Shown here one piece after another: positions 16,535-34,077 of a stretch of DNA of 34,115 nucleotides. Under the pieces are notes generated by a model that saw only the letters and a program-made list of their open reading frames with translations, was not told the DNA's origin and did not search any database. Source of the stretch: a virus. The DNA lies in the IMG/VR virus record IMGVR_UViG_3300004457_000126, positions 1-34,115 of that record; one strand, 5' to 3'. The position numbers and the translations under genes were made by a program. Each line of letters opens with the position of its first letter. The first letter of the stretch is position 1.

Positions 16535-18682
16535 ATGAGTCAGACAATTTTCCCGGATATTAACCCTGCCGCGACATCGGGGACGCAGTTAGCGACACAC
16601 CTAAATGATTTTAAGGCCGCATTAATGAGCGGACAGTCGGGTACTTCCAGACCCTCTGCCACACTAGCTGGCGGGTACTGGGTGGATACCACTAACGACC
16701 CTACTTACTGGTCCTACAAAATGTACACGGGCGCGGCTGACGTAGAAATTTTCCGTTTGAATTTAACAACGGCGTCAGCTTCCATTACCGGAGCCGATAG
16801 CACATTTGATATTCTGCGAGTAGCTGCCGACGCAGTTGGACCTATCCTAAAATTAATCAAGCGACGTATCGCAAGTAACGGCCAGGTACTATCCGGCGAC
16901 ATCGTAGGCCAGCTTCAAGTCATTGGCCGCGCCAGCGACTCAAGCAATCCCGTAGTAGCTAATATGAAAGTGGTAGCAGTAGAAAACCAGACCGCTAGTG
17001 CGAGTGGTGTTTACATCGCGTGGGAATCCACTCCCGCGCTATCTGCTACTGCTGTAGAACACATGAGATTATCGAACGGATTTTTAGGGGTAGGAACCTC
17101 TGCACCTGACGCCCGTATCCATGCCAAAGGTCCCACAGGGATTAAGTCAGAGTACGTGGCTGACACTGCCACTCCCGCTAAATTGACTATGCAGAAAAGC
17201 CGACTTTCTGGAACCGGAGCCACGCAGAGTTCTGATGAAATAGCCGAAGTAGTTGTCATTACTACCGACGACACTACGGCTAAAGTCCAGTCGGCTAGCA
17301 TTAAGGCAGTAGCTACCGAAGCCCACACTACCGGGGCTAGAGGTACTAAACTATCTTTCCTTACCTCCCCGACTGGCGGGACTACACCCACTAACAAAAT
17401 GGACATTGGGGATAAGGTAAACCCAGTAGCTATTTTAAAAGTTCCTCTCTTAGAACTAGATTCTCAGACTGTTGCGACGACGGCCACTATCGTACAGCTA
17501 TCGGCCACTAAAGCAGTTGTTGAGTTTACCGGGTCTACGGCTACCGACATTCAGGGCATTAACTCCACCGCCTTAACGATGTCGAAAGTAATTGTTCTGC
17601 ACAATATCTCAACCGCAGTAATTACTTTAAAGCATGAGAACGGAAGCGCGGCAGCGGCAGACAGGATCAAACTTCCAGGAGCCGCGGACGTGCTAATACC
17701 AGCTCAGAAAACAGTAGAGCTATGGTACAGCCCCACAGACACTCGCTGGAAGTTAAAGACAGGAATAGATGCTAGCAGTCCAATGACTGCCACTGGGGAT
17801 ATTATTTATGGAGGCACTGGCGGGACGGCTACACGTTTAGCGGCTGGGGCTAACGGACTCTACTTGGGACTTTCTGGCGGTATCCCATCATGGTCCTCTC
17901 CGTCTGGGTCCGTAGGCATTTCAGCTAAGACTTCTAGCTATACCCTCCTGAGTACTGACGATATTATCACCTGTAGCGGTGCCAGCTTCACGCTTACTCT
18001 CCCTACAGCAGTTGGAGTAGCAGGTAAGCAGTATGTGATTAAGCATTTAGGGACTAGCTTAACCCAGGTTTACACATTGGCTACAACCTCCGGGCAAACA
18101 ATAGGCGGAGTAGCGGGGGGAAGTTACGCTCTCTATACGGAGCAGGAGAGCATAAAAGTAGTTAGCGACGGCGCTAACTGGCAGATCCTAGACCGTTTCG
18201 CGTCTACTGACTGGATCGACGGCGGTACGTTTACGTCAAAGCTTACGGCGACGACGACTAGTCCGACACTCGGTACGGCTACAGTAGTTATAAATAAAAT
18301 CTGGTGGAGACGGTACGGGAACACGATGGAGGGTAGATACGAGTTTAGGCATACGGCACCAGGTACAGCAAATGCTGGCTCTGGGGACTACTTAATAGGT
18401 ATGCCTTCTAGCATTACCATCGACACAGCTAAGGTTACTGTCTACACAACGATTGAAGGCGTCGGGGCATACGTACAAAATAACACTATAGGACAGGCGG
18501 CGTTCGGTAATGCTGAGAGTAAGGCTGGGTCTGCTGTGGCGTTTGACGCCAACAACTTTAGACTATTCGCGTTCGGTGTTAACAACGCTGGCGCACTTGG
18601 ATCTAGCTTCGACGCCCTTAGTAACTCGGCGGCGTATTATACCGCAATAGTTTCTGTTCCGGTATCTGGATGGAGACCCTAA
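16535..18682 (+). CDS. Tail fibre / spike protein downstream of J
   Basis: A 715-residue protein with an AAGGAGA ribosome site. The N-terminus (SQTIFPDINPAATSGTQLAT, then HLNDFKAALMSG) followed by GGYWVDTTNDPTYWSYKMYTG is a known anchor type in phage and prophage fibres, probably binding the tail tip. The middle contains DARIHAKGPTG and LGVGTSAPD segments common in trimeric fibre shafts. The C-terminal ~130 residues (RYGNTMEGRYEFRHTAPGTANAGSGDY...) form a possible receptor-binding head. As the last gene of the tail operon it is a likely determinant of host range, alongside the larger fibre at the left end. Confidence 0.82.
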   Translation: MSQTIFPDINPAATSGTQLATHLNDFKAALMSGQSGTSRPSATLAGGYWVDTTNDPTYWSYKMYTGAADVEIFRLNLTTASASITGADSTFDILRVAADAVGPILKLIKRRIASNGQVLSGDIVGQLQVIGRASDSSNPVVANMKVVAVENQTASASGVYIAWESTPALSATAVEHMRLSNGFLGVGTSAPDARIHAKGPTGIKSEYVADTATPAKLTMQKSRLSGTGATQSSDEIAEVVVITTDDTTAKVQSASIKAVATEAHTTGARGTKLSFLTSPTGGTTPTNKMDIGDKVNPVAILKVPLLELDSQTVATTATIVQLSATKAVVEFTGSTATDIQGINSTALTMSKVIVLHNISTAVITLKHENGSAAAADRIKLPGAADVLIPAQKTVELWYSPTDTRWKLKTGIDASSPMTATGDIIYGGTGGTATRLAAGANGLYLGLSGGIPSWSSPSGSVGISAKTSSYTLLSTDDIITCSGASFTLTLPTAVGVAGKQYVIKHLGTSLTQVYTLATTSGQTIGGVAGGSYALYTEQESIKVVSDGANWQILDRFASTDWIDGGTFTSKLTATTTSPTLGTATVVINKIWWRRYGNTMEGRYEFRHTAPGTANAGSGDYLIGMPSSITIDTAKVTVYTTIEGVGAYVQNNTIGQAAFGNAESKAGSAVAFDANNFRLFAFGVNNAGALGSSFDALSNSAAYYTAIVSVPVSGWRP

Positions 18683-19018
18683 GTGGATGACACTGACCAT
18701 AAGATACGTAAAACAGTTTCCCTAACTCATAGGCAGATAGGTGTAACTGGACTAATAGGACTAGCAGTAGCCCTAGCTCCGTATCTTAAAGAGACCTTCA
18801 TCACTCGCGAAGAAGGTGCACAGGTATCAGTCCAGATTGAGTACATGAGAAAAGATATTGCGGAGATAAAAGAGAACCAGGAAAGAAACACGGATAGAAT
18901 CCTAATGGGCATTAAAGATTCCGAGAGACGCACGGAAAAAAATGCTGACAGATTAGAATTGCGTGTGGATAGTTTAGAGGCATCAATTAGGCCAAGGAAG
19001 TTTAAGTCCGAAAATTAA
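18683..19018 (+). CDS. Small membrane protein with coiled coil (lysis-associated candidate)
   Basis: A 111-residue protein starting at GTG immediately after the fibre stop. Residues ~17-36 (HRQIGVTGLIGLAVALAPYL) form one membrane helix. Residues ~50-105 are charged with heptad character (VQIEYMRKDIAEIKENQERN, then DSERRTEKNADRLELRVDSL), predicting a coiled coil. A single N-terminal helix plus coiled coil is the layout of XhlA-type holin partners and of inner-membrane spanins. Position next to other small membrane proteins supports a lysis role, but no family is recognised with certainty. Confidence 0.6.
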   Translation: MDDTDHKIRKTVSLTHRQIGVTGLIGLAVALAPYLKETFITREEGAQVSVQIEYMRKDIAEIKENQERNTDRILMGIKDSERRTEKNADRLELRVDSLEASIRPRKFKSEN

Positions 19019-19035
19019 AAACCAAGGGAGGTTTT

Positions 19036-19281
19036 ATGAAGACGATTGTAGAACAAGTAGTAGGCGGAGACGGGGCTAAGGCTGGCCTGTACGTTGACGG
19101 GGATCAATTAACAGTTAAAATCGGCTATCCGATTGCTAAATTAATTAGCCCCATCACTGACGTACTGGACGCAGCTATCGACAAACTCGAAGCCGCTATC
19201 CCTGGCGACTGGGATAAGGCACTACTTGAGCCGATCCGCGCCGAGGCTAAGGCCGCACTGGTAAAAGTCCTAAGCGAGTAA
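19036..19281 (+). CDS. Hypothetical protein (81 aa)
   Basis: An 81-residue protein with a strong GGGAGG ribosome site. It contains GLYVDGDQLTVKIGYPIAKL followed by amphipathic helices (VLDAAIDKLEAAIPGDWDKA, then IRAEAKAALVKVLS). No catalytic or membrane signature is clear. Its position between two membrane protein genes suggests a role with them, which is inference only. Confidence 0.6.
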   Translation: MKTIVEQVVGGDGAKAGLYVDGDQLTVKIGYPIAKLISPITDVLDAAIDKLEAAIPGDWDKALLEPIRAEAKAALVKVLSE

Positions 19282-19282
19282 T

Positions 19283-19807
19283 ATGTTTATTTTCATATTC
19301 TTCTGCATGGTAATTCTGTACGCGGTGTCAGTTGTAAAGCTGACAGAGCGTATGCGTAAGTTGGAGAGGACTATCCTTTTCACTACACGTCACCAGAATT
19401 ATCTGATCTATAAAGTCCTGGATAAATTAACTCCCGTCGATGCTGTCAGAGTTGAATTCTTCACTCTCATTGACGGGGAAAAACGAAAGGTGTCAAAGAT
19501 GTTTTTAAAAGTAACCCAGAAATTACCGCTATTCGTAGCGTTCGTAGATGCTCTCGGAAATCCCGCCACTGTTGACGGCGCTCCCTCGTGGGCAGTTAGC
19601 GATGAGTCGCTAGCTACTCTTGATGTAGCTGCTGACGGCATGAGCGCGATGGTTAATCCCATCGGTCCCGTGGGATCGTTTAAGGTTCAAGTAAAGGCTG
19701 ATGCTGACCTTGGCGAAGGCGTTAAAGAAATCATCGGCGAAATGGACATCGACCTTATGGGCGGTGAGGCTGTTTCCGTAAATATCTCTGCTGGCGAACC
19801 TGTATAA
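19283..19807 (+). CDS. Membrane-anchored protein with Ig-like (BIG2-type) domain
   Basis: A 174-residue protein. Residues 1-17 (MFIFIFFCMVILYAVSV) form a membrane anchor. A basic helical stretch follows. Residues ~73-174 make an Ig-like domain (KLPLFVAFVDALGNPATVDG, then APSWAVSDESLATLDVAADG, ending AVSVNISAGEPV). That domain alone resembles small proteins found beside fibre genes in many phages and often starts with a MFLKVTQ-like sequence. A possible internal start at ATG 19499 would release the Ig part without the anchor. Ig-like domains in phage products often bind carbohydrate or cell surfaces. The anchor-plus-Ig combination is unusual. Confidence 0.6.
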   Translation: MFIFIFFCMVILYAVSVVKLTERMRKLERTILFTTRHQNYLIYKVLDKLTPVDAVRVEFFTLIDGEKRKVSKMFLKVTQKLPLFVAFVDALGNPATVDGAPSWAVSDESLATLDVAADGMSAMVNPIGPVGSFKVQVKADADLGEGVKEIIGEMDIDLMGGEAVSVNISAGEPV

Positions 19808-19809
19808 GT

Positions 19810-20169
19810 ATGGCTATCTCCGGGAGATATGATTTCCAGGGGATAAAGAAAGCTGGAGCCTCGGCATTAGCCTTGGCTCTGGCCGCTTCTCCCTACACCG
19901 CTTGGATATTAAAAGGCGGTAAGCTGACCACACTCTGTCTAGAATTTCTCGCGAACCTTCTCGCTAACAACGGCCTGATAATTTTGAATCTCGGAGCTAT
20001 CTACATCGAGGGACACTTCGATCAAAAACTATTCGACGCCGCCCTACAGGACGGTCTAGATAAGGTCCAGCTAGGTAGGGATAAGTTAACTCCCGAACAG
20101 GGAAAGGCTATCGACGATGCAGTACGCGATGCGGCTCGCCGCTTTATTAATATTAGCGCTCGTAAATAG
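19810..20169 (+). CDS. Putative membrane protein, holin-like candidate
   Basis: A 119-residue protein with two hydrophobic segments (residues ~15-33, GASALALALAASPYTAWIL, and ~45-65, LANLLANNGLIILNLGAIYI). The C-terminal half is charged and helical (ALQDGLDKVQLGRDKLTPEQ...). Two membrane segments and small size fit a holin-like protein, but the family is not recognised. Its end overlaps, out of frame, the start of the next candidate lipoprotein gene by 53 nt. Confidence 0.5.
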   Translation: MAISGRYDFQGIKKAGASALALALAASPYTAWILKGGKLTTLCLEFLANLLANNGLIILNLGAIYIEGHFDQKLFDAALQDGLDKVQLGRDKLTPEQGKAIDDAVRDAARRFINISARK

Positions 20170-20458
20170 TGGATGCCCGTCCATGCAGATACAGGACTTC
20201 AAGGCGGGAGTGACTCTGCCCTTCTCAGAGCGATGTTTTTTCGTTAATGCTATCAGCGGGAAAGAGACTGAGTACCCAGCAGACCAGTGTGACCGCATGA
20301 AGAAGGCCGGACTAATTATCTTATCTGAGGACTGGAAAATCATCCGAAAGAACTTCCAAACGAATTGCCAGATCCTCCAGTGTAAACAATTAGTCGGACA
20401 ATTCGATCAATTATTTATGACCATAGACAAAAGTCTAAAGCTAATCCCCTGGAACTAA
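20117..20458 (+). CDS. Secreted or lipoprotein-like small protein (possible outer spanin)
   Basis: A 113-residue protein that begins MQYAMRLAALLILALVNSGC, a signal peptide ending in a Cys. The residue three before the Cys is Asn, so the lipobox is not canonical; a second ATG at 20129 would give a tighter signal. The mature part has four further cysteines (C at SERCFF, DQCDRM, TNCQIL and LQCKQL), suggesting disulfides in the periplasm. Embedded overlap with an upstream membrane gene is reminiscent of Rz/Rz1 pairs, but the sequence does not look like known Rz1. Confidence 0.5.
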   Translation: MQYAMRLAALLILALVNSGCPSMQIQDFKAGVTLPFSERCFFVNAISGKETEYPADQCDRMKKAGLIILSEDWKIIRKNFQTNCQILQCKQLVGQFDQLFMTIDKSLKLIPWN

Positions 20459-20462
20459 CCGC

Positions 20463-20490
20463 TTGCCATTGAAGAACCGCTGAATACAAT
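20463..20490 (+). promoter_or_regulatory. Sigma70-type promoter for the replication operon
   Basis: TTGCCA (20463-20468) and TACAAT (20485-20490), each one mismatch from consensus, are separated by 16 bp in the only non-coding gap before the replication genes. Transcription would start near 20497 and read a ~120-nt leader. An 8-bp palindrome, TACTAGTA (20507-20514), lies just after the predicted start and could be an operator. Confidence 0.7.
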
Positions 20491-20528
20491 CGTAGGTGGA
20501 TCTACTTACTAGTAGTACCGGACATAAA

Positions 20529-20570
20529 AGCCGTCGCGGGGCACGGCTATAAAGAAACCCCGCACTTTTA
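20529..20570 (+). terminator. Attenuator-like leader with two mutually exclusive hairpins
   Basis: Hairpin 1: AGCCGT (20529-20534) with ACGGCT (20543-20548), 8-nt loop. Hairpin 2: GCGGGG (20536-20541) with CCCCGC (20558-20563), 16-nt loop, followed by ACTTTTAT. The left arm of hairpin 2 is the loop of hairpin 1 and its loop holds the right arm of hairpin 1, so both cannot form as simple hairpins. Hairpin 2 with the T-rich tail looks like a weak intrinsic terminator and hairpin 1 like its competitor. Confidence 0.65.
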
Positions 20571-20618
20571 TACATAACTAGACTCGTTTTCCCTGGACTA
20601 CTGGTTAACACTTTCCGT

Positions 20619-21386
20619 ATGAGTGGACCTAGAATAATACTTTATGATTTAGAGACACTACCGAACCTCCCGGAAGCGCTCAAGCAATGGACACAGCTCT
20701 CCAACTACCCGGGACAGACTCTCAAGGCCAGCATCAGCTCTATCATCTGCGCGGGATGGAAGGTCCTGGGGAGTAAACAGACCCAGTGTATAAACGCCTG
20801 GGATTTCCCGGAGTGGAAGAAGAATGTTAACGACGACAGGAAAGTATGCCTGGCTATCTATGAAGTCCTTAAGGATGCTGACTGTATAGTAACTCATAAT
20901 GGACGAAGGTTTGACTGGAAGTTCCTCCAGACCAGACTCATGTTCCACGGTCTCCAGCACTTACCTAAGATAGCCCACGTAGACACCTGTGCAGAGGCCA
21001 AGAAAAACATGATGGTATTTAACAACCGTTTAAATACCATAGCCAAGTTCCTAACCAAGTACGAAAAAATGGACCACGAGGGATGGGATCTGTGGGTAAA
21101 AGTACATGGCCGAGACCCTAAGGCAATGAAGACAATGGAGAAGTACTGTAAGCAGGATGTGGTAGTTCTCGAACAGGTCTTTAATAAACTCCGCCCGGTC
21201 ATTGGCTCCCTTCCTAACCAAAATTTATTTAATCCCCTAAAGGCTAAGGCGTGTCCTGGGTGCGGCAGCTCAAGACTGATAAGTCGGGGTAAGTACCACA
21301 CACTCACTAAAACCTATAAGCGTTATGTGTGTCAGGACTGTCGGCACTGGTGCCGAACAGATGCGTCGGATGAGGCTCCTAGATGA
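20619..21386 (+). CDS. DnaQ-like 3'-5' exonuclease with C-terminal zinc ribbon
   Basis: A 255-residue protein. The RNase H-fold exonuclease motifs are present: YDLETLP with Asp10 and Glu12, THNGRRFDWKFL (Asp in the NxxxFD motif), and YCKQDVVVLEQVF (YxxxD). The C-terminus adds a four-cysteine ribbon (CPGCGSS...CQDCRHW), which may bind DNA or a partner. The product probably degrades single strands or proofreads in replication; phages with family A polymerases often encode a separate nuclease of this type first in the operon. No good ribosome site precedes the ATG (CTTTCCGT), unlike most genes here, which may make translation dependent on the leader structure. It overlaps the next gene by 4 nt. 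Confidence 0.8.
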   Translation: MSGPRIILYDLETLPNLPEALKQWTQLSNYPGQTLKASISSIICAGWKVLGSKQTQCINAWDFPEWKKNVNDDRKVCLAIYEVLKDADCIVTHNGRRFDWKFLQTRLMFHGLQHLPKIAHVDTCAEAKKNMMVFNNRLNTIAKFLTKYEKMDHEGWDLWVKVHGRDPKAMKTMEKYCKQDVVVLEQVFNKLRPVIGSLPNQNLFNPLKAKACPGCGSSRLISRGKYHTLTKTYKRYVCQDCRHWCRTDASDEAPR

Positions 21387-21628
21387 AGTTTTCAATAGTA
21401 CACATCGTCTGGAGGGACAGTGAAGCGTCTAACGACTGGACGCCCACTGCTGACATCACTAATGAGCTAGACACCACGCACACGGTAGGCATCTTATTGC
21501 GAGAGACTGAGACCTTCCTGCTGGTAGCACTTAGCTACGACCCCTCCACAGAGTCCGTTAATGGGTTCAAGAAAATACCACTGTCCGCAATAGAGGGGGT
21601 GAAAACATTGACCAAACTATCTTTCTAA
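21383..21628 (+). CDS. Hypothetical protein (81 aa)
   Basis: An 81-residue protein overlapping the exonuclease gene (ATGA). It starts KFSIVHIVWRDSEASNDWTP and continues with a beta-rich pattern (THTVGILLRETETFLLVALS) ending KKIPLSAIEGVKTLTKL. That pattern resembles small proteins of unknown function seen in phage replication operons. No catalytic residues stand out. Confidence 0.65.
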   Translation: MKFSIVHIVWRDSEASNDWTPTADITNELDTTHTVGILLRETETFLLVALSYDPSTESVNGFKKIPLSAIEGVKTLTKLSF

Positions 21629-21653
21629 TTCTAGCATTTTCCTGGGGGTGGTT

Positions 21654-22010
21654 ATGGTGGTTCACTATACGTCTAATCATAAGATCCGGGATTTTAAAAA
21701 CTCGCGTCGAGGAGAGTACCGCCAGTGGTGTACCGAAACGTGGGAGAATAAGAAAGTCATTGGCCAAACGGACGACGGTAAACCGATCCACGACCGGGAC
21801 TACACCACGTCGCTAGCCAGAGTTACCTGTGTGCAATGTTTAAACAGACTCATCCCCAAACAAGAATTATTGATAAGTAAAATGAGAGAGGCTAGGAGCG
21901 CGGCTTCCGTTTCCACCGAGACCTGGCCGACGAGTAGGATTGCGTCTTTACCAGATGGCATACTCCGCATAAAAGTTGAAGGTTCGACTGACGACAATAC
22001 ACCCGCCTAA
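21654..22010 (+). CDS. Hypothetical protein (118 aa), converges with antisense HNH gene
   Basis: A 118-residue protein. The ATG at 21654 is preferred over the in-frame GTG at 21648 because GGGGGTGG lies 5 nt upstream of the ATG. It contains a CVQCLNRLIPKQ segment that could form half of a metal site, and a Lys/Arg-rich N-terminus. Its last ~119 nt overlap the 3' end of the HNH gene on the other strand, so the C-terminal sequence of one of the two may be constrained by the other. No family recognised. Confidence 0.5.
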   Translation: MVVHYTSNHKIRDFKNSRRGEYRQWCTETWENKKVIGQTDDGKPIHDRDYTTSLARVTCVQCLNRLIPKQELLISKMREARSAASVSTETWPTSRIASLPDGILRIKVEGSTDDNTPA

Positions 22011-22296
22011 CGTAGTCGTCAAAGTCCCCTTTAAACGGACCTATCTCCTCGATGTGGTCCACTTCCATTGACTTCTCGTCCCTAAACCACCGGAGGCACC
22101 TGGCACAATGCCAGTGGTATTTATAGATCCTCTGGCCCTTCTTACCGACTCTTACGAAAACTTTTTTTCGGGCACGGCGTAAGCACTCGGCGCGGCCCGG
22201 CCACTTTATTGTTCCCTGTCTCAATACATTGATGATGAATAGCTCGTCCTCTCGCGTCACTGTCCAGTGGCCCCCTTGACCAGGTAATAGTTTCAC
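21892..22296 (-). CDS. HNH endonuclease, antisense inside the replication operon
   Basis: A 134-residue protein on the minus strand. It carries a clear HNH/ββα-Me core: YHWHCARCLRWFRD, then EVDHIEEIG, RQSNLQLLCGVCHLVKT. That gives the CxxC pairs, the DH, the central Asn and final His expected for an active nuclease. It starts at a GTG with no obvious ribosome site. A later GTG in TVTRED, 10 nt after GGGGG, is another possible start. Free-standing HNH genes next to phage DNA polymerase genes are frequently homing endonucleases. The antisense orientation within a sense-strand operon suggests insertion. HNH identification is firm; homing role is inference. Confidence 0.8.
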   Translation of the reverse strand: MKLLPGQGGHWTVTREDELFIINVLRQGTIKWPGRAECLRRARKKVFVRVGKKGQRIYKYHWHCARCLRWFRDEKSMEVDHIEEIGPFKGDFDDYVRRVYCRQSNLQLLCGVCHLVKTQSYSSARSRWKRKPRS

Positions 22297-22304
22297 GTTT
22301 TAAA
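22276..22304 (+). promoter_or_regulatory. Candidate promoter upstream of DNA polymerase
   Basis: TTGACC (22276-22281) and TTTAAA (22299-22304) are 17 bp apart and 35 nt before the polymerase start. The -10-like hexamer is part of TTTAAACACT (22299-22308), the reverse complement of the recurring AGTGTTTAAA motif. It overlaps the antisense HNH start, so it could connect expression of both genes. Confidence 0.4.
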
Positions 22305-22339
22305 CACTCACTCAATAATGTTTTTCGGGGGAGCGATAA

Positions 22340-24361
22340 TTGGCGAGAACGGTAGCACTTGATTTTGAGTTCTCCGGCATGGTGGAGCCTAAAGTAACCC
22401 TGGTCTGCTGTACCACTATGGACATGGCTACGAAAACCAGCCGCGACTGGTGGTTACACCGCGACACCGCCGCTCAGAAAAAACTGGCCGACTACCTCCT
22501 GCAATTCGACACAGTGATAGGCTACTCCTGCGTAGCAGAGGCCAGATCCTTTATGGCCCTAGGACTAGACCCACTTGAGTTCGAGTGGGTGGATCTGTTT
22601 CTAGAGTACCGGATGCTGACTAATCACAATGACGAGTTACAGTGGGGGGAGCAGCTAGTAGACGGAAAAGTTAGGAGGGTCAAAAAACCTAAACCTAAGT
22701 GGGAGCGCACCGATGCGGATAAGGCGGAGGGGTTTAAGGCCACTCACTCGCTAGCAGAGGCGACGTTTAAACTCACCGGGAAAATACGCGACACCGAACA
22801 TAAGAAGAAAATGCGGGACCTAATTATCTCAGCTCCCGAAAAGTATTCTGCGGCGGATCGTAAAAGCATCATGGACTACTGCTCCTCTGACGTAGTCTTT
22901 CTCCCCAGGATATGGGAGCGGGTTTGGCAGGAGTTTAAAAAATTAGACGGGGGGACATCCCAAGCTAAGTTTATCGAGGAGGCTATGGTACGGGGCCGCT
23001 ACTCCGCGCACACTGCTATCATGGAGACACTCGGCTATCCCATCGACATTGAGAACACCAGGAATTTCTCTCGGCAGGTAGGTAACATCCTCATGGATGT
23101 GCAGCGTGAGATTAATAAATTATTTCCAGAGATAAAACCTTTTCGCTGGAACCATAAGGATAATAAATTTACGTGGAACCAAAAAATAACCCAAGACTGG
23201 ATAGCAAAGAACCATGACACCAAACTATGGATTAAAACGGAGGGCAAAAAACTCTCTCTGTCGCTTGAGGCATTTGAAAAGCAATACAGTTTCAGACACG
23301 ACTATCCTGCCGACATCTTTGGCGCTCAGATGGTCCGCTTCCTTAAACTCAAGCAGTCCCTATACGGATTCAGTGACAGCGGCGGTAAGCGTAAAAACTT
23401 CTGGGACTCTGTGGGCAGCGATGGTCGTGTAAGGCCATACATGAATCACTACGGCGCTCAGTCGTCTAGATCCCAGCCAGCCGCCAGTGGGTTTATGTTT
23501 CTAAAGCCAGCGTGGATGAGAGCGTTAGTTACCCCTGACCGGGATCATTTCATGGCTGGCATTGACTACGGATCGCAGGAGTTTTTTATCGCGGCTCTGG
23601 AGTCCGAGGACGACAATATGATAGCGGCGTATCTCTCTGGAGACCCATACCTACACACCGCGAAGCTAGCCGGAGCCGTTCCTATGGACGGCAGGAAAGA
23701 AGACCATAAGCCGATGCGGGATCTGTTTAAGGCAACGGTACTCGGCATCTCCTACCTAATGACTAAGCATGGACTGGCTATTAAACTGACTAACGACACG
23801 GGCCGCGTATGGACAGAGGACGAGGCCGAGAATCAAATTGATATGTTCTACGACGCCTACCCAGATTTTAAAAACTGGCAGGATGAGCTACAGAGGGACT
23901 ACCGTAACAACGGGGCGATAGCGCTTCCCTGTGGGTGGAGGATGTTTGGCGATAACGAAAACATCCGGTCAGTGTGTAACGTACCGATCCAGGGATTCGG
24001 CGCGTCGGTAATGAGGAAGGCCGTAGACCTGGCCGTGGGCCGAGGCTGTAAGGTATGCTTCACACTCCACGACGCGCTCTACATTGAAGGACGCATCGGA
24101 CAGGAACATCAAATAAAAATACTGGCCGACTCTATGCGTGACGCATTCGTGTACTACTTCTCCGATAAGAAACTCCGTAACTTCGCCAAGCAAATAAAGC
24201 TAGACCCCTTCGCGTGGAGCCCGGCCTACAAAAAGGACAGCGAGAAAAATATTTCTGGACTCATTGTGCCATGCTCAAATTTGTACATTGATGAGAGGGC
24301 ACAGTATGACTACGATAAATTCTCAAAATATTTTCTTAATGCTGATTCTGATTTACTTTAA
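22340..24361 (+). CDS. polA-like: Family A DNA polymerase with 3'-5' exonuclease domain (Leu762 type)
   Basis: A 673-residue protein starting at TTG with a GGGGGAG ribosome site. The N-terminal exonuclease domain has LDFEFSG (Asp-x-Glu) and YCSSDVVFLPRIW; the middle motif is altered (GYSCVAEARSFMALG instead of NxxxFD), as in some phage relatives. The polymerase domain has motif A GIDYGSQEF (Asp409), motif B with Arg460, Lys464, Leu468 and Tyr472 at the spacing of E. coli R754, K758, F762, Y766, and motif C TLHDALYIEG (His577, Asp578). The residue aligned to Pol I F762 is Leu. It replicates the phage genome with the SSB-like protein and SNF2 helicase downstream. No primase or replicative helicase of the usual kind is seen in the window. 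Confidence 0.93.
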   Translation: MARTVALDFEFSGMVEPKVTLVCCTTMDMATKTSRDWWLHRDTAAQKKLADYLLQFDTVIGYSCVAEARSFMALGLDPLEFEWVDLFLEYRMLTNHNDELQWGEQLVDGKVRRVKKPKPKWERTDADKAEGFKATHSLAEATFKLTGKIRDTEHKKKMRDLIISAPEKYSAADRKSIMDYCSSDVVFLPRIWERVWQEFKKLDGGTSQAKFIEEAMVRGRYSAHTAIMETLGYPIDIENTRNFSRQVGNILMDVQREINKLFPEIKPFRWNHKDNKFTWNQKITQDWIAKNHDTKLWIKTEGKKLSLSLEAFEKQYSFRHDYPADIFGAQMVRFLKLKQSLYGFSDSGGKRKNFWDSVGSDGRVRPYMNHYGAQSSRSQPAASGFMFLKPAWMRALVTPDRDHFMAGIDYGSQEFFIAALESEDDNMIAAYLSGDPYLHTAKLAGAVPMDGRKEDHKPMRDLFKATVLGISYLMTKHGLAIKLTNDTGRVWTEDEAENQIDMFYDAYPDFKNWQDELQRDYRNNGAIALPCGWRMFGDNENIRSVCNVPIQGFGASVMRKAVDLAVGRGCKVCFTLHDALYIEGRIGQEHQIKILADSMRDAFVYYFSDKKLRNFAKQIKLDPFAWSPAYKKDSEKNISGLIVPCSNLYIDERAQYDYDKFSKYFLNADSDLL

Positions 24362-24370
24362 TTTAAAATA

Positions 24371-24393
24371 GGTTTTGAGATTAACTCAAGACC
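24371..24393 (+). promoter_or_regulatory. Hairpin upstream of the SSB-like gene
   Basis: Arms GGTTTTGAG (24371-24379) and CTCAAGACC (24385-24393) form nine pairs including one G-U, with loop ATTAA. It sits 9 nt after the polymerase stop and ~20 nt before the next ATG, which has GAGGAGAGAG. It could be a processing site separating the polymerase and SSB messages, or a translational operator. Confidence 0.5.
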
Positions 24394-24414
24394 ACACACG
24401 AGGAGAGAGAAGCT

Positions 24415-24843
24415 ATGGCTAAAAGAGTGTTTAAAAGCACTAAGAAAATATCGGGGGGCAGTAGCCTATACCGATCATGGGATAAGTGGTCAGAGGATGA
24501 CACTATCATTGGGGAATACATCGGCACTGGACGCCAGGATAAGTACGGTCACGACACGTACAATGTGAAGGTAGAAGAAGTTTTCTTTAATAAACCTTCG
24601 GAGGCTAAAGGACTTCGCGGTAACATCATCACACTTAACCACACAGGCGGGTTCGGTAAGTATATGGCGAACGTAGAGACCGGAGCGATGCTACAGATCG
24701 TTTACAAAGGTCAGAACGAAATCCAGAAAGGCAAGTGGGCCGGAGAGATGGCACACGCTATCGAAGTGGACATCGTAGAAGAAGAAGGAAGCGGAGAGGA
24801 GTACGCAGAGGATGAAGAAGAAATCGAAGAAGACGATCTCTAG
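24415..24843 (+). CDS. Single-stranded DNA-binding protein (OB-fold, acidic tail)
   Basis: A 142-residue protein with a GAGGAGAGAG ribosome site. The body (GGSSLYRSWDKWSEDDTIIG, then EYIGTGRQDKYGHDTYNVKV, and TGAMLQIVYKGQNEIQKGKW) has the beta-strand spacing of an OB fold with conserved aromatics. The last ~24 residues are almost all Glu/Asp, the interaction tail typical of SSBs such as T7 gp2.5. It lies between the polymerase and a RecE-like nuclease, the usual place. The AGTGTTTAAA motif occupies codons 4-7. Family assignment is by fold pattern and context. Confidence 0.75.
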   Translation: MAKRVFKSTKKISGGSSLYRSWDKWSEDDTIIGEYIGTGRQDKYGHDTYNVKVEEVFFNKPSEAKGLRGNIITLNHTGGFGKYMANVETGAMLQIVYKGQNEIQKGKWAGEMAHAIEVDIVEEEGSGEEYAEDEEEIEEDDL

Positions 24844-25765
24844 TCCCTACGTACTAAACGAGTATAACTTCGATATGCCTTCTGAGGTGTACCACTCAAT
24901 AGTAGGTACTTACTCTAGCTCACAGTTCAAAGACCTACTCGACGATGAGGTTCACTTCATCAAGAAGTATGTCGATAAAACTGTGGAGCGAGAGGACGTG
25001 CCAGCGTTTAGCGTGGGTAACTACTTCCACACTGGCGTACTGGAGCCGGAAAAGCTGTCCAAGGACTGCGCTGTATATAGTGGCAAAGTCCGCAGGGGGG
25101 CTGACTGGGAGAAGTTTAAAGCCAAAAACGAGGGCCGGGTCATTGTGACTTCAAGCCAGCGTGAGGAGGCCGAGAGATTAATCAACTCCGTGAAGGCGTC
25201 TGACATAGCGATGAGCTACGTCGATGGGGGGAAGCCGGAGGTATCGCTATTCGTTAAGCTGGCAGTGTACGCAGGAGATATTTACGCCCCAGAATTTAAT
25301 AAGGTATTAGACCGAAATTCTGGATGGGTGGATTTCGACTGGACTCCGTGCGATGCGGTGGAGCTGATAGTGAAAGTCCGGGCCGATAGTCTCGGAGATG
25401 ATTTCGTACTGGATCTAAAGTCTACCAGCGGTAACGCTAGGTCTAATGGCTCGATGAGAAACAAAATCTCATACTATCATTATGACCTATCGGCAGCGTT
25501 GTATTTAGATATTTTCTCCCTGCCAAGGGGGGAGCAGCTAAATAGCTTTATCTGGACGTTCGCATCTAAGGACTATTTCAACTGCAAGTCTTACGTAGCT
25601 AGCTCCCACAATATACGAGTGGGCAGGGCTAAGTACATGAAGGCAATGCTCAGTCTCGCTAATCTAGTGGCTACTGACTATAGAGTTGACGATGTCCTGG
25701 GGGTACTAGAACCGCTACCGCATGAGTTAGAGTATTTAAAAGAAAACGACCTAGATTTAATTTAA
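24812..25765 (+). CDS. RecE-like / PD-(D/E)XK exonuclease
   Basis: A 317-residue protein that starts within the acidic tail of the SSB gene (32-nt overlap). GAGAGGAG lies 9 nt upstream of the ATG. It has the RecE/exodeoxyribonuclease VIII-like layout: YNFDMPSEVYHSIVGTYSSS, then QFKDLLDDEVHFIKKYVDKT, and FSVGNYFHTGVLEPEKLSKD. The catalytic region is IVKVRADSLGDDFVLDLKST (Asp, then D-x-K), followed by YYHYDLSAALYLDIF, the conserved Q/Y helix. It resects double-stranded ends for annealing-based recombination. No ssDNA-annealing (Bet/Erf/Sak) protein is recognised nearby; the next gene is the best candidate partner. Confidence 0.85.
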   Translation: MKKKSKKTISSPYVLNEYNFDMPSEVYHSIVGTYSSSQFKDLLDDEVHFIKKYVDKTVEREDVPAFSVGNYFHTGVLEPEKLSKDCAVYSGKVRRGADWEKFKAKNEGRVIVTSSQREEAERLINSVKASDIAMSYVDGGKPEVSLFVKLAVYAGDIYAPEFNKVLDRNSGWVDFDWTPCDAVELIVKVRADSLGDDFVLDLKSTSGNARSNGSMRNKISYYHYDLSAALYLDIFSLPRGEQLNSFIWTFASKDYFNCKSYVASSHNIRVGRAKYMKAMLSLANLVATDYRVDDVLGVLEPLPHELEYLKENDLDLI

Positions 25766-25782
25766 CCAAACAGGAGAATTTA

Positions 25783-26319
25783 ATGACACCACAGACAGTT
25801 ACCTACACACGCCGTATGCCAATGGAGCAGTACGGTTATTGCGAACTTACGGCTACGGCTACAATCGGCGACGATGAGAACGCGCACGATGCGTTTATGT
25901 CCCTGAAAGAAGAAGTAGAGAAGGCAATCTCTGGAGAGATGTCCGCAGCTTCGGAGACAGTAACCGAGGAGCCAAAGAAAAAAACTAAGGCCAAGGTTAA
26001 AGCGGCCAAGGTTGAAGAAGAAGAAGAAGAAATTAACACCGAAGACACTCCCGACGATGATGAGGGGGAGGAAGTAGTAGCTCCGAAGGCCGCGAGAAAA
26101 ACGAAGTCAAAAACTTCTACCTACTCGCGCTCAAACGAGACTCATAAAGCGTTGTTCGCGGCTACTCTTAATGAGGAGTTCCCCGCGTGGAAAAAAACAG
26201 ATGCCAGTAAAGCTAAGGCTAAGAAATTAAGCCAGTCGCTAGACGGCACTGAGTTCCTAGACGCTGACGGAGAAGTTACTATGTCCTTTATCGCTCTCAT
26301 GCGTAAGGGCATGAAGTAG
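25783..26319 (+). CDS. Charged hypothetical protein, candidate recombination partner
   Basis: A 178-residue protein with an AGGAG ribosome site. The N-terminal ~50 residues are compact (YTRRMPMEQYGYCELTATAT). A Lys/Ala and Glu-rich linker follows (KKKTKAKVKAAKVEEEEEEI). The C-terminal ~55 residues form a basic helical domain (HKALFAATLNEEFPAWKKTD). This N-terminal type occurs in phage replication operons next to a RecE-like nuclease. The very charged disordered linker suggests a flexible tether. It overlaps the helicase gene by one base. No annealase fold can be claimed. Confidence 0.6.
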   Translation: MTPQTVTYTRRMPMEQYGYCELTATATIGDDENAHDAFMSLKEEVEKAISGEMSAASETVTEEPKKKTKAKVKAAKVEEEEEEINTEDTPDDDEGEEVVAPKAARKTKSKTSTYSRSNETHKALFAATLNEEFPAWKKTDASKAKAKKLSQSLDGTEFLDADGEVTMSFIALMRKGMK

Positions 26320-28610
26320 TGAAACCTGCCGCGCCTCTGAGAGAATACCAGGAGCGCGGCATTCTTTACGCAATAAAAAATCCCTACTCAATACTCGCGA
26401 TGGACCCCGGACTGGGAAAGGCACAGAAAAATACTTCAAGAGTTTATACCCCGAAAGGTCCGGTTCCTATTGCGTCCCTGAGTGTAGGGGATATTGTGCT
26501 AGGTCAAAATGGAGAACATAGACGTGTCCTTGGAGTATATCCCCAAGGGGTTAAAGATATTTTTAAAATATCGTTTAATGACGGCAGCTCTACTCACTGT
26601 TGTAAAGAGCATCTATGGTCAGTTCAAAACGGAAATCAAAAGGCCAGGGGTCTTGGATTTAAAGTCCTAGACACGGCTAGCATACAATCTACTTTAAAAG
26701 AGCGAGGGGGAAAACTAAGATGGGTCATACCCCAGCTATCCTCTCCCGCATCTTTCTCCGACAGGGATTTAATCATACCCCCATATTTAATGGGGGTCCT
26801 GATCGGAGACGGGAGTCTGCGGAGGGGGGTAACACTAACCAACCGATCTCCCTTCATATATAAAAGAATAGTAAAGTGCGCTGACGGGTACACGGTTAAG
26901 AGAGTTTCTAGTGGCAATAGTTTCACTATCTCTATACTTGGCAGGGATAAAAATAATAGAAATCCTATGTTCTCGGAGATAAAAAGACTGGGTCTAGATG
27001 TTCTATCCAAGCACAAATTCGTTCCCGATCAGTACAAGTATGGGTCCTTCACCTCTCGACTGGATATTCTAACTGGTATTCTAGATACGGACGGATACGT
27101 CATGTCGGACGGGACTCTACAATTTACTTCGGCATCCGAGAGGCTAGTAGATGATGTCAGAGAGATAGTAGAGAGTTTTGGAGGAGTTGCTAGAAAGCGG
27201 TTTAAAAGGGCTAGATGTCAGACTGGGATATTCAATAGCTGGACTATCACCATATCCATGCCCTGTGGCATGGTGCCGCTATCTAAGCCTTTTAAAAGGA
27301 AAAGATTTAAAGAGAAAACCAAGTACCTTCCTAGGAGGAGAGTAGCCTCTATTGAAAGTGCTGGCAGACATGAGGCTACTTGCATATCAGTGGAGGGCGG
27401 ACACTATCTAACAGATCATTTTATAGTTACACATAACACTAGAATTGCCATTGAACTAAGAGAACGTCTAGGCGGTAACTGCCTAGTGATATGCCCGGCG
27501 TATCTTATCGCTAATTGGGAGGCTGAGATCCGCCTCTGGGCACCTCCCGATAGAGTTGTCACTGCCGTAAAGAAGGGTAAGGATCTTTACGACGTTTTCG
27601 ATTCGGACTACGTGCTGGTTAGCTACGACCTGTGCCAGAAATCAGAACACCTATTTGAGTGGGCGGACATGGTCATTATGGACGAGGCACACCTAGCTAA
27701 GTCAATGAAGGCCAAGCGCACACAATTCATACACAAAAATGTTTACGAGAATAGCATCAAGCGCATACATCTATTGACTGGCACTCCTATTAAAAACAGA
27801 ACGCAAGAATTCTACAGCCTTTTATCGTTGTGTAGCTATTGTCCAGACACACCGGACAGTCGATTTTTAGACGCCTACCCCGATGAAATAACATTCGCTG
27901 ATAAGTTTAGCTACCGGGAGGAGTACACGATAGAAGTAGGCGGGAGGCACGTCACAATACTAAAATGGTCCGGGCTTAAAAACGTAGAGGAGCTAAAAAC
28001 TTACCTGGATGGGAAGTATTTAAGAATTAAGTCTTCAGACGTTCTGGATCTCCCGCAGGTAGTTTTTAAGGACGTTATACTTAGCTCAGAGCCGGACCAC
28101 GCACTGCTAAAAGCCTTTAAAGAATACATAGAAACATACTCAGAGAGATTCGACCCTACGGTCAAGGCTGTATCGGCACTAAGTAAAACTCCGTCCACCA
28201 TAAAGTACGTACAGAATTTAATCGAGGAGACGGGGTGCGCTCTGGTCTACACCGACCACGTCCTAGCGTCGGAGACTCTGGCCAGGGGGCTAGGGACTGT
28301 GGCGATAAACGGGAATATGCCAGCGCACAAACGTATGGAAGCCGTAAACAATTTTCAAGCTGGCCAGGGAACTGTTTTAGTGGCTACAATCGGGTCGCTA
28401 TCCACCGGAGTAAATTTAACCAGGTCTAATCACATAGTCCTTAATGACTTACCTTGGGTGCCCGGAGATTTAAAACAAACTATCTACCGAATTCAAAGAC
28501 TAGGTCAGAAAAATAGTTGTTTTGTTCACAGAATATTCTCCAGCTCAACGGATGAGTACATCGCAGAAGTTCTGTTATCTAAACAGGAGACTATAGACAT
28601 GGCCACTTAA
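26319..28610 (+). CDS. SNF2-family DNA helicase interrupted by an intein
   Basis: The 763-residue precursor starts at GTG. The extein parts (residues 1-34 and 374-763, about 424 residues after splicing) form an SNF2-type helicase. It shows LREYQERGI, Walker A MDPGLGK/T split by the intein, motif II MDEAH (Asp455-His458), LLTGTPIKNR, FNLTR-like TGVNLTRSNHIVLNDLPWVP and QTIYRIQRLGQKN. Without removal of the intein the ATP site cannot form, so splicing should be essential for function. Such helicases in phage replication modules probably assist fork remodelling, branch migration or recombination. It is the last gene of the replication operon. Confidence 0.93.
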   Translation: MKPAAPLREYQERGILYAIKNPYSILAMDPGLGKAQKNTSRVYTPKGPVPIASLSVGDIVLGQNGEHRRVLGVYPQGVKDIFKISFNDGSSTHCCKEHLWSVQNGNQKARGLGFKVLDTASIQSTLKERGGKLRWVIPQLSSPASFSDRDLIIPPYLMGVLIGDGSLRRGVTLTNRSPFIYKRIVKCADGYTVKRVSSGNSFTISILGRDKNNRNPMFSEIKRLGLDVLSKHKFVPDQYKYGSFTSRLDILTGILDTDGYVMSDGTLQFTSASERLVDDVREIVESFGGVARKRFKRARCQTGIFNSWTITISMPCGMVPLSKPFKRKRFKEKTKYLPRRRVASIESAGRHEATCISVEGGHYLTDHFIVTHNTRIAIELRERLGGNCLVICPAYLIANWEAEIRLWAPPDRVVTAVKKGKDLYDVFDSDYVLVSYDLCQKSEHLFEWADMVIMDEAHLAKSMKAKRTQFIHKNVYENSIKRIHLLTGTPIKNRTQEFYSLLSLCSYCPDTPDSRFLDAYPDEITFADKFSYREEYTIEVGGRHVTILKWSGLKNVEELKTYLDGKYLRIKSSDVLDLPQVVFKDVILSSEPDHALLKAFKEYIETYSERFDPTVKAVSALSKTPSTIKYVQNLIEETGCALVYTDHVLASETLARGLGTVAINGNMPAHKRMEAVNNFQAGQGTVLVATIGSLSTGVNLTRSNHIVLNDLPWVPGDLKQTIYRIQRLGQKNSCFVHRIFSSSTDEYIAEVLLSKQETIDMAT
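26421..27437 (+). mobile_element. Class 3 intein with LAGLIDADG homing endonuclease
   Basis: The 339-residue intein spans precursor residues Ala35-Asn373 and lies between Lys and Thr of the Walker A motif (GLGK/T). Residue 1 is Ala, so the usual Cys/Ser nucleophile is missing. Block B has THCCKEHLW, with His98 and Trp100 at the B:10 and B:12 positions. Block F has TCISVEGGHYL, Cys355 at F:4. Block G is FIVTHN followed by T, with Thr371 at G:5 and a Thr at +1. This Trp-Cys-Thr set defines class 3 inteins. The endonuclease has two LAGLIDADG motifs: YLMGVLIGDGS (Asp164) and LDILTGILDTDGY (Asp258), both with the acidic residue, so the enzyme is probably active. Confidence 0.93.
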
Positions 28611-28656
28611 ATTGTATTAGTGTTTCAAAATTAACTTTCACTAAAAGGAGTTTTAA

Positions 28657-28836
28657 ATGCTACGTGTTCAACGTCTTGAGCGACCTACTAAGCGCAGCGG
28701 AGTAAAAATCGAGCCAGGTGGGGCCACGCTAATGCGCGGACTACGGGTAATAAATCAAAATAATTTCTCGGTATGGGTAGATAAATTTACCCCTCCGGCA
28801 CAATTACTAGCTAAGAAAAGAAAAGCTAAGAAATGA
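28657..28836 (+). CDS. Small basic hypothetical protein (59 aa)
   Basis: A 59-residue protein with an AAAAGGAG ribosome site. It reads MLRVQRLERPTKRSGVKIEP, later FSVWVDKFTPPAQLLAKKRK, and ends in a Lys/Arg tail. It overlaps the next ORF by 4 nt (ATGA). The preceding gap (28611-28656) contains TTAGTG and CACTAA arms flanking an AT-rich loop. No family recognised. Confidence 0.65.
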   Translation: MLRVQRLERPTKRSGVKIEPGGATLMRGLRVINQNNFSVWVDKFTPPAQLLAKKRKAKK

Positions 28837-28922
28837 GCTGGCATGAAATAGCAGCGGCGGCATTTAATATTTCCGCTCTGATATTTGTTTACGGAATGGT
28901 CTGGAAAACTTGGAACTACTAA
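28833..28922 (+). CDS. Tiny single-span membrane peptide (29 aa)
   Basis: A 29-residue ORF reading MSWHEIAAAAFNISALIFVY followed by GMVWKTWNY. Residues ~5-22 are hydrophobic enough for one membrane helix, flanked by Trp residues at the interface. It overlaps the upstream ORF and ends 13 nt before the endolysin start. Location directly before the endolysin suggests a holin-like or accessory lysis peptide. It is shorter than any classic holin family, so this is inference. Confidence 0.5.
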   Translation: MSWHEIAAAAFNISALIFVYGMVWKTWNY

Positions 28923-28935
28923 ATTAGGGGGAATC

Positions 28936-29664
28936 GTGACTGACCGAACAGAGGGTATTAAGCGGCTACAATCGGCTCTAAATGGAATGGGGAATAAGCT
29001 GACAGTAGACGGCGACTACGGGCCGATCACTGAGGCCACGACGCTTGGCGCTATCGGACATAAGGGTAATACTGCCCCAGACATTAAACCAGTACCCGAC
29101 GTTAAACCAGCCCCAGTGGTCGCAGGAGGGATGTTCGGCGCTCCGTGGGTGTTCGCTAACATCGACCTACTCGGACGCAGTGAGACCGATCCTGAGTTAA
29201 ATGCGCGGTATGTGCCGGAGTGGAAGCTAGATGGACTGCCGGGATATAAGACGCTGTCCGGCAATTCTTATGCGTGGTGTTCTGTGAGAGAAAACGCCGA
29301 TAAGCGAAAAGTCGGGGTCAGGGGAACTAATAGCGCGGGGGCTAGATCATGGTCTACGTGGGGGAAAAAATGCCCGTTCTGGTTTGGCGCGACACTTGAC
29401 ATCCAGCATCCTGGAGGGGGCCGCCATGTAGGGGACTTCCTTTACTGGATAGACGAGAAGAAGAACCTAGCCGCAATTCTCGGCGGGAACCAAGGCAATA
29501 GATTCTCAGTAGCTTCGGTAAGTTTGGCTCCGGGTCACGATAAACTAGTAGCAGGTCCCAGATGGTCAAATGACGTTAGTGACGGAATATTCGTTTCAAT
29601 GAGCGAAGTTTTAAAAGCGCACCCGTACCTAAAAGTCGGCGGCGCGATGACTAGAACAACTTAG
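28936..29664 (+). CDS. Endolysin (peptidoglycan-binding domain plus TIGR02594-type peptidase)
   Basis: A 242-residue protein. The GTG at 28936, preceded by AGGGGG, is preferred to an upstream in-frame ATG at 28885 that lies inside the preceding small ORF. Residues ~4-42 form a peptidoglycan-binding domain (GIKRLQSALNGMG, DGDYGPITEAT). A Pro/Lys linker follows. Residues ~68-242 match the TIGR02594 family of NlpC/P60-like phage lysins: PWVFANIDLLG, SYAWCSV with Cys115, NSAGARSWSTWGKKC, GGRHVGDFLYW with His164, and ILGGNQGN. It cleaves the host cell wall at the end of infection. No signal peptide, so a holin is needed for release. A strong terminator follows. Confidence 0.88.
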   Translation: MTDRTEGIKRLQSALNGMGNKLTVDGDYGPITEATTLGAIGHKGNTAPDIKPVPDVKPAPVVAGGMFGAPWVFANIDLLGRSETDPELNARYVPEWKLDGLPGYKTLSGNSYAWCSVRENADKRKVGVRGTNSAGARSWSTWGKKCPFWFGATLDIQHPGGGRHVGDFLYWIDEKKNLAAILGGNQGNRFSVASVSLAPGHDKLVAGPRWSNDVSDGIFVSMSEVLKAHPYLKVGGAMTRTT

Positions 29665-29679
29665 TCCGTAGTGGACGCC

Positions 29680-29728
29680 ACGGCTGGCGCTAGGGTCAAT
29701 GTCACCTAGGTACTGCCAGCCGTTTTTT
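29680..29728 (+). terminator. Intrinsic terminator after endolysin
   Basis: Arms ACGGCTGGC (29680-29688) and GCCAGCCGT (29715-29723) are perfectly complementary and followed by TTTTTT. An inner stem CTAGG/CCTAG (29690-29694, 29705-29709) extends the hairpin. This is the strongest terminator in the window. Confidence 0.9.
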
Positions 29729-29740
29729 ACTGGGGGATGA

Positions 29741-29968
29741 GTGGTACAGCCATATTTAGAGCTAATCGACGGCAGTGAAGTAACGGCGGAGATAGACACA
29801 GCGGCTATCGGAATTGACGGCAGATTTCGCCCTGTAATTATTGGAGACGACGAGGGAATAGAGATAAATATTACCATCGACGACGCCCGTAGAGTTTTAG
29901 ACTTCTTGATAGAGGCGATTAAGTATATGGAGTTTAAGTCTAACGCCTATCATGGGAGAAAACAGTGA
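29741..29968 (+). CDS. Hypothetical protein (75 aa)
   Basis: A 75-residue acidic protein starting at GTG with a GGGGGAT ribosome site, directly after the terminator. The pattern PYLELIDGSEVTAEIDTAAI is followed by IEINITIDDARRVLDFLIEA, suggesting beta strands and one helix. It overlaps the next gene by 4 nt. No promoter is clear between it and the terminator, so transcription may come from read-through or a phage-specific promoter. No family recognised. Confidence 0.65.
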   Translation: MVQPYLELIDGSEVTAEIDTAAIGIDGRFRPVIIGDDEGIEINITIDDARRVLDFLIEAIKYMEFKSNAYHGRKQ

Positions 29969-30198
29969 GATCCTTCTACGAGGAGCTGCTAAAAAAATGT
30001 GAGTACGGCCCTTCTGGGGATGGGTTTAGATCTATCTACATGGAAGGCGCTCTCGATGCTAAGGACATCTATTTCGCTAAAATATCGGAAATAGAATTAA
30101 GTCTAAAGAAGTCCTGTACGTGCGAGGTAGTTGACGATTGGATTCCCGTTGGGACCTGTCCGGTATGCGCGGCGATATTGTCGCTTAAGGAGTTTTAG
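29965..30198 (+). CDS. Small Cys-containing hypothetical protein (77 aa)
   Basis: A 77-residue protein starting at a GTG overlapping the upstream stop. After a helical N-terminus (FYEELLKKCEYGPSGDGF) the C-terminus has CTCEVVDDWIPVGTCPVCAA. The four cysteines could bind zinc, as in short regulatory phage proteins. It is followed directly by a TTG-initiated lipoprotein gene whose ribosome site (AAGGAG) lies in its last codons. Confidence 0.6.
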   Translation: MRSFYEELLKKCEYGPSGDGFRSIYMEGALDAKDIYFAKISEIELSLKKSCTCEVVDDWIPVGTCPVCAAILSLKEF

Positions 30199-30342
30199 TT
30201 GAGACTAATAATCGCCCTGCTATTTTTATCTAGCTGTACGCCGACGCTTAAGGACTGCACTAACCGCTGCGCTGCTAAAGGCAAAGCGGTTAAGGCTTAT
30301 CATTCTCGCGGTGTATGTGACTGTGTTGGAGATGTGCCGTGA
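30199..30342 (+). CDS. Short lipoprotein (47 aa)
   Basis: Missed by length-based gene calls. A 47-residue ORF starting at TTG with AAGGAG 7 nt upstream. It encodes MRLIIALLFLSSCTPTLKDC: a short basic-hydrophobic signal and a canonical lipobox LSSC, with +2 Thr favouring the outer membrane by the usual sorting rule. The mature part is 34 residues with five further cysteines (DCTNRC, VCDC). Such small lipoproteins in phages serve as outer-membrane spanins or as superinfection-exclusion factors that block receptors. It is 535 nt after the endolysin. Confidence 0.65.
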   Translation: MRLIIALLFLSSCTPTLKDCTNRCAAKGKAVKAYHSRGVCDCVGDVP

Positions 30343-30393
30343 CATCCACCCCAAGTGAATCGCTTGAGGCAGAACTCGAAGGGAGAGGGCAGG

Positions 30394-30944: not shown

Positions 30945-30953
30945 GGGGGAGAC

Positions 30954-31345: not shown

Positions 31346-31346
31346 C

Positions 31347-32903: not shown

Positions 32904-32906
32904 TGC

Positions 32907-33833: not shown

Positions 33834-34077
33834 GATAATTTTTCCCGCAGCTACCCCCAAAAGTCAAAAATTTTTGTTGCAGGGATCTAATAGGAAATAT
33901 GGAAAACAGCCCATATCCACTGGTTTTTTATCTCGATTTGCTACATGGCACGGTTATCCGTTCGAGATCAGATCGGATACGTTGGCTGGCATGATAAATA
34001 TTCTGAGAAAACGCTAACTACGCGAAACTCTGCAACCCCTTGATGATACGTCCAGATCCGCCACGTTCGACCATCTC

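Follow-up and report, generated by a model that had tools for sequence, protein, structure and literature searches.

The window analysed here is a 34,115-nt stretch of uncultured phage DNA (IMGVR_UViG_3300004457_000126), and the element under study lies at positions 20463-20618 on its plus strand, in the intergenic region between the late gene block and the DNA-replication block. The last gene of the rightward late block (20117-20458, plus strand) encodes a small, lipoprotein-like protein that is spanin-like by eye; a Pfam search with this gene returned no match, and a homologue precedes the element in one of the related phages described below (L013). The gene that follows the element (20619-21386, plus strand) encodes a DnaQ/RNase H-like DNA polymerase exonuclease subunit (PHROG 403, E 4e-60). 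Its ATG has no ribosome site, as stated in the initial annotation, which had set it apart from most other genes: among ten gene starts inspected by eye, those at 20619 and 19810 lack a Shine-Dalgarno sequence.

A cassette of three genes, comprising the exonuclease gene and continuing through 21383-21648, contains the sole genes between the element and an antisense HNH endonuclease gene (21892-22296, minus strand), which is itself situated between this cassette and the DNA polymerase gene. The adjacency of the latter two is kept in relatives, as the antisense HNH gene directly precedes the polymerase gene in 12 contigs of this phage group, the window included. Promoter-like sites are found directly upstream of the polymerase gene (22274-22320, plus strand), the best being TTGACC-17-TTTAAA and the second TTCACG-16-AATAAT. 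Taken singly, the best sites at this position are mostly ordinary, as 12 to 258 of 300 shuffles do equally well across ten genomes; the best site begins TTGACN in seven of the ten, including the window, and this recurrence implies that the replication block probably has its own promoter. Because the polymerase gene is probably served in this way, and because an antisense gene lies behind the cassette, the element in the window leads at most into the three exonuclease cassette genes.

Several other genes of these phages have features of their own. The SNF2-type helicase of the window (26319-28610) is interrupted by ~337 residues (roughly 37-373) that give a LAGLIDADG match; in L008 and L013, two relatives described below, the flanking helicase parts are adjacent and the insertion is absent, and it appears by all signs to be an intein. 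The gene at 24415-24843, which adjoins exonuclease VIII, encodes a 142-aa protein with a strongly acidic tail and no Pfam or PHROG match, by eye a candidate single-strand DNA-binding protein. Two regions of L024 (1123-4385) match the N-terminal half of a 715-aa protein of the window (16535-18682), which suggests that a tail-fibre-like gene has been duplicated there.

Where the initial annotation placed a near-consensus promoter before the stems, a promoter-like site is indeed present. This sigma-70-like sequence, TTGCCA-16-TACAAT (20463-20490, plus strand; 10/12 match; predicted start ~20497), scores best by PWM in the stretch from the last late stop codon to the stems (20459-20528), and 2 of 500 shuffles reach its score. 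It is one of three 10/12 sites in 18000-34115, a region in which the promoter scan overall gave no excess (19 sites vs 19.4 by chance). The predicted transcript would begin with a hairpin (20497-20520, plus strand) formed by CUACU-UACU-AGUAG at 20502-20515 and three outer pairs (-6.9 kcal/mol; 13 of 200 shuffles as good). Bases 20498-20521 may also form a long-range duplex with 3' arms at 20593-20605 and 20621-20629 (20593-20629, plus strand; -25.6 kcal/mol). This duplex, of 22 bp, covers the end of the exonuclease start codon and is equalled by 3 of 1000 shuffles, a result for the window only. It is therefore conceivable that translation of the exonuclease depends on structure, as the initial annotation had also suggested, through this duplex reaching the start codon.

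Predicted fold and its conservation

Downstream of the promoter-like site, S1 (20529-20534 with 20543-20548; AGCCGU/ACGGCU) and S2 (20536-20541 with 20558-20563; GCGGGG/CCCCGC) are stems of 6 bp each. The initial annotation had described two hairpins that compete for the same bases; both stems exist, but they share no base, and their arms interleave so that they cross as an H-type pseudoknot (20529-20563, plus strand). L1 (20535) and L2 (20542) are single nucleotides, C in both cases, and L3 (20549-20557) comprises nine A-rich nucleotides, AUAAAGAAA; in the predicted geometry, the short L1 would cross the deep groove and the A-rich L3 the shallow groove. Two stems that each pair in the other's loop or flank, by way of sterically possible loops, define an H-type pseudoknot, and this is the arrangement predicted here. 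The knot is predicted to be possible on the plus strand only, because the arms on the minus strand would need a one-base loop to span a 6-bp stem. On that strand S1 can form a 6-bp hairpin followed by UUUUAUG (20529-20548, minus strand), a weak terminator-like site particular to the window, as the minus-strand U tail is absent from the L008 and L013 sequences.

The summed stacking energy of the pseudoknot is -28.0 kcal/mol, with five U behind it, and none of 4000 dinucleotide shuffles of the intergenic region gave an equal energy with as many U. No pseudoknot of -26 or lower was found in 2.2 Mb of shuffled phage DNA. With S2 held fixed, an S1 as good as that observed arose in 1, 35 and 38 of 20000 shuffles for the window, L008 and L013 respectively, the last two counts not being independent as these phages share S1. 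In the fold prediction of 20497-20640 proposed in the initial annotation, nested folding misses the pseudoknot, and the pseudoknot-free fold is unremarkable (z -1.49).

Searches of the phage collection with blastn, against near and distant phages, found no DNA relative of the window. The nearest named relative of the polymerase by tblastn is in the Silvanigrella phage record CP017838 (31%), in which there is no pseudoknot match of -18 or lower with five U. In IMG/VR, polymerase relatives occur in six further contigs at 56-68% identity, and alignment gave 19 loci. The two phages with the polymerases most similar to that of the window, L008 (69%) and L013 (67%), both carry the fold at the same boundary. 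In L008 it reads GUCGU-AU-CCCCGG-ACGAC-UUAGUAAAUAAU-CCGGGG (4535-4570), and in L013 GUCGU-G-GCCUCGG-ACGAC-UUUUAAAUAAG-CUGGGGC (3970-4005). The three folds have in common an 8-nt S1 loop; in all of them L1 is 1-2 nt long, L2 0-1 nt and L3, which contains A, 9-12 nt. They lie 71, 114 and 82 nt past the last late-block stop codon in the window, L008 and L013 respectively.

Covariation of the stems in relatives, which the initial annotation had named as a check, is present: in the three phages, standard pairs occupy 34 of 34 cells, and two-sided changes affect four pairs, three of them in S2. This count uses a hand register, as MAFFT places the S2' arm of the window two columns off, and it represents about two independent lineages, L008 and L013 being alike in sequence. 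The three sequences are most alike in L3 and the 3' arm of S1 and freest in S2, which looks to be the pattern expected of a selected fold. The 5' part of the predicted RNA is unconserved in sequence among the three. The 5' hairpin was rejected as a conserved part of the element, as its counterpart is strong in L008 (z -4.1) and missing from L013 (z +0.6), where the structure is unconserved too.

It is very unlikely that the fold reflects chance pairing within a GC-rich intergenic island. Scanner matches of similar strength do occur elsewhere, such as one on the minus strand of L009 (-27.6, 4 U), but in none of the three regions, window, L008 or L013, did any of 4000 shuffles reach the observed value, and four pairs have changed on both sides. 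The element is very probably a pseudoknot maintained by selection.

U-rich tail and distribution of the element

Directly 3' of the pseudoknot in the window stands ACUUUUAUAC, and its U-rich tail, ACUUUUAUACAU (20564-20575, plus strand), is weak. The T-rich stretch that the initial annotation saw after one of the hairpins is there (20566-20571), but it is preceded by A-C and interrupted by A. In L008 and L013 the U-rich tails, UUAUUUUUUU and UUUUAUUUU, lie directly behind S2'. A stable stem followed directly by a U tract is therefore present in both relatives and weak in the window. This is also seen in a d'Aubenton-style terminator score for S2 and tail, which is +9.5 for L008 and +4.0 for L013; the window scores -36.1 with S2 alone and +6.7 when both stems are counted. 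The L008 fold ends at the stop codon of a convergent HNH gene, and the stop codon of a convergent gene is a usual place for a terminator. Elsewhere in the window, CTGCCAAAAAATCGGCAGTTTTTTTGAT (33650-33675, plus strand) is an ordinary-looking terminator, so this phage probably uses plain hairpins too.

The boundary upstream of the HNH and polymerase genes was readable in 12 contigs (the window, L008-L013, L021, L022, L023, L033 and L045), three of which have the pseudoknot there. L009 and L012 instead have an ordinary GC-rich hairpin, that of L012 being deduced by coordinates from near-identity to L009. No supported pseudoknot was found at this boundary in the remaining seven, in several of which the HNH gene directly adjoins the end of the late block. 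A scan of 20 sources for pseudoknots with U tails gave 16 matches of -18 or lower vs 13.3 expected, and three of -22 or lower vs 1.7. Pseudoknot terminators are hence no general habit of these phages, and since matches are not enriched genome-wide, the case for the element rests on its position and covariation in three phages.

At 12 exonuclease loci (the window and 11 others), the same type of scan gives a match upstream of the exonuclease gene for the window and L004, and a supported pseudoknot is found in the window only. L004 was rejected as a fourth pseudoknot, as 190 of 20000 shuffles equal its weak S1 and a single hairpin whose stem has 11 bp accounts for the match; this hairpin has its own U tract and lies in the exonuclease leader, with a divergent gene upstream. 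A separate observation concerns the exonuclease genes of L001, L004, L038 and L039, in each of which the start codon lies 6-10 nt behind the end of a -10-like hexamer. By eye none of these genes has a ribosome site, the best upstream case being L039 (CTGACA-17-TATTAT), and they may be read from leaderless mRNAs.

Scanning viral and bacterial collections with the S1 pattern of L008 and L013 gave 68 new sites (22 viral, 46 genomic), six of which could pair S2, and with that of the window ten sites, three of which could. None of these adds a further member with a U tail, the S2-capable sites carrying three U or fewer. Three of the six S2-capable sites from the former scan belong to an unrelated bacterial leader of ~280 nt, conserved between L091 (minus strand, about 3.50-3.66 kb of the reverse strand), L107 (minus strand) and L113 (3368-3500). 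It contains a GUCGU/ACGAC H-type pseudoknot and a block like AATAAGGCTCTGCACGAAAACGTC, and precedes genes for a Cys-rich exported protein in alphaproteobacterial or proteobacterial MAGs, two of the three sites being in one MAG. This leader has no Rfam match at gathering and is possibly an undescribed leader RNA. For the phage element, Rfam likewise gave no match at gathering over the whole window and none of relevance at E<=10 in 20400-20700.

Proposed termination and alternative readings

The reading that best accounts for the fold, its conservation and its position, all of which are computed, is that the element acts as an intrinsic terminator built on an H-type pseudoknot at the boundary of the late and replication genes, to which we would assign a probability of roughly 0.55. 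Polymerase would arrive after starting at the local promoter-like site (20463-20490) or after transcribing the late genes. S1 would form first, exposing the 5' arm of S2 in its 8-nt loop, into which the emerging S2' would then pair, so that the two stems would stack coaxially, with an A-rich third strand locking them. The knot would sit directly behind the polymerase during synthesis of the U-rich stretch, and the transcript would be released with a knotted, exonuclease-resistant 3' end. Since the distance from the end of the best promoter-like site to the pseudoknot is 38, 45 and 42 nt in the window, L008 and L013 respectively, transcription from this site would naturally yield a free RNA of ~75-85 nt. 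Given the poor U tract of the window, it is plausible that some polymerases there read on into the exonuclease cassette, so that constitutive partial attenuation of this cassette is possible. More broadly, control of 3' ends at the level of RNA is likely, since the structure runs into a U-rich end and two relatives retain it. Promoter use, termination, RNA size and read-through are all deduced rather than computed. Against termination, the tail in the window starts with A-C and does not score as a terminator unless S1 is counted, and the L013 fold is traversed by an ORF of 207 codons (ATG at 3918) that has a good ribosome site. Over the fold in the window there is an 18-codon GTG frame without a clear ribosome site.

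The initial annotation interpreted the region as a leader controlling the replication operon through antitermination. A regulated attenuator of this kind, with replication gene expression set by an antitermination signal and a pair of mutually exclusive hairpins, would fit the succession of promoter, structure, T-rich stretch and exonuclease gene, as well as the terminator-like hairpin in the leader of the exonuclease relative L004. The two stems are on disjoint bases, however, which removes the basis for a mutually exclusive terminator and antiterminator. The conserved element also does not fit as the leader of a replication operon, because the next gene in L008 is convergent (HNH, 4571-4945, minus strand), leaving no sense gene after the fold, and an ORF crosses the fold in L013; furthermore, the polymerase gene has promoter-like sites of its own in seven of ten genomes. 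As the pseudoknot is supported at just one of the 12 exonuclease loci, the L004 structure being better explained as a single hairpin, regulated attenuation seems quite improbable. A translational operator, at which a phage protein such as the acidic-tailed 142-aa protein encoded at 24415 would bind the pseudoknot and repress the exonuclease in the manner of gp32, is very improbable. The end of the pseudoknot is 55 nt before the start codon, comparable to the 67 nt given for T4 gene 32 (PMC3014915), the exonuclease gene lacks a ribosome site, and the long-range duplex reaches its start codon. Yet neither in L008 nor in L013 is the fold followed by an exonuclease gene, the U tails are stronger in places without a gene to regulate, and the assignment of the 142-aa protein as a single-strand binding protein was made by eye.

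The RNA may instead be the functional product, with termination a by-product. As a free-standing, stable, RydC-like small regulatory RNA of ~80 nt, it would act in trans, its targets being mRNAs of the host or phage, or an RNA-binding protein of the host. The similar placement of the best promoter-like site in all three phages argues for this, as do the lack of a gene in the same direction directly downstream in L008 and the strong 5' hairpin of that phage. In L013, ribosomes translating late mRNA would pass through the fold, such that only an untranslated transcript from a local promoter could end there. Nevertheless this reading is unlikely, given that the promoter-like sites of L008 and L013 score as ordinary (36 and 136 of 500 shuffles as good), that the 5' part is not conserved and that Rfam has no match. 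A combined history, in which this clade of phages has a RydC-like small RNA gene whose pseudoknotted 3' end both terminates transcription and protects the RNA, the window copy having drifted to a leaky attenuator after insertion of the exonuclease cassette, is rather unlikely.

If termination at the pseudoknot is the correct reading, the element would be a natural intrinsic terminator in phages built on a pseudoknot instead of a hairpin, with both stems covarying. It would offer a system in which to test whether pseudoknots drive RNA release or mainly protect 3' ends, and may mark a phage-encoded small RNA. More practically, where 'competing hairpins' have interleaved arms and short loops, a pseudoknot should be the first structure tested. 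In a literature search whose coverage mostly excluded subscription journals, the exact phrase 'pseudoknot terminator' had no match, hence no claim is made that such elements are unpublished.

Comparison with known systems

The RydC family is included in Rfam, and the absence of a relevant match argues that the element is not a member of that family proper by sequence homology. The likeness is one of anatomy: RydC is a short RNA with an H-type pseudoknot and a U-rich tail at which Rho-independent termination occurs (PMC4337610), and a promoter-like site, pseudoknot and U tail are found together in all three phages, two of the promoter-like sites being weak. The element differs in being phage-borne and located at a module boundary, and no sequence similarity to RydC was established.

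Among phage RNAs, T4 gp32 represses translation at its own leader. The gene 32 leaders of T4 and T2 resemble the window in having a phage pseudoknot tens of nucleotides upstream of a replication gene (67 nt in T4 vs 55 nt here); by contrast, no U-tract terminator is described in the accessible part of that account (PMC3014915), and the gene downstream of the present element varies between relatives. The type III antitoxin RNAs ToxI and CptI also fold as H-type pseudoknots, and CptI has a one-base L1 and an A-rich loop, as here; their terminator, however, is separate from the pseudoknot (PMC5086642), and the window has neither tandem repeats nor a ToxN-like gene. A type III toxin-antitoxin system was rejected, as there is a single unit by eye and the downstream gene encodes an RNase H-like exonuclease. 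The preQ1-I, SAM-II and SAM-V riboswitches are leader pseudoknots, some of them coupled to terminators. A riboswitch was rejected too, there being no Rfam match and, by inference, no room for a ligand pocket with an L1 and L2 of 1 nt. Equally, a frameshift pseudoknot, which should have a slippery heptamer in the coding frame 5-9 nt upstream, was rejected by eye, as the fold is intergenic in the window and L008 and follows no such heptamer in L013. The ordinary intrinsic terminator hairpins found at the same boundary in L009 and L012 are alike in place, GC-rich stem and U-rich tail; the element differs from them in that its 'loop' of 15-17 nt contains a second stem, which pairs upstream.
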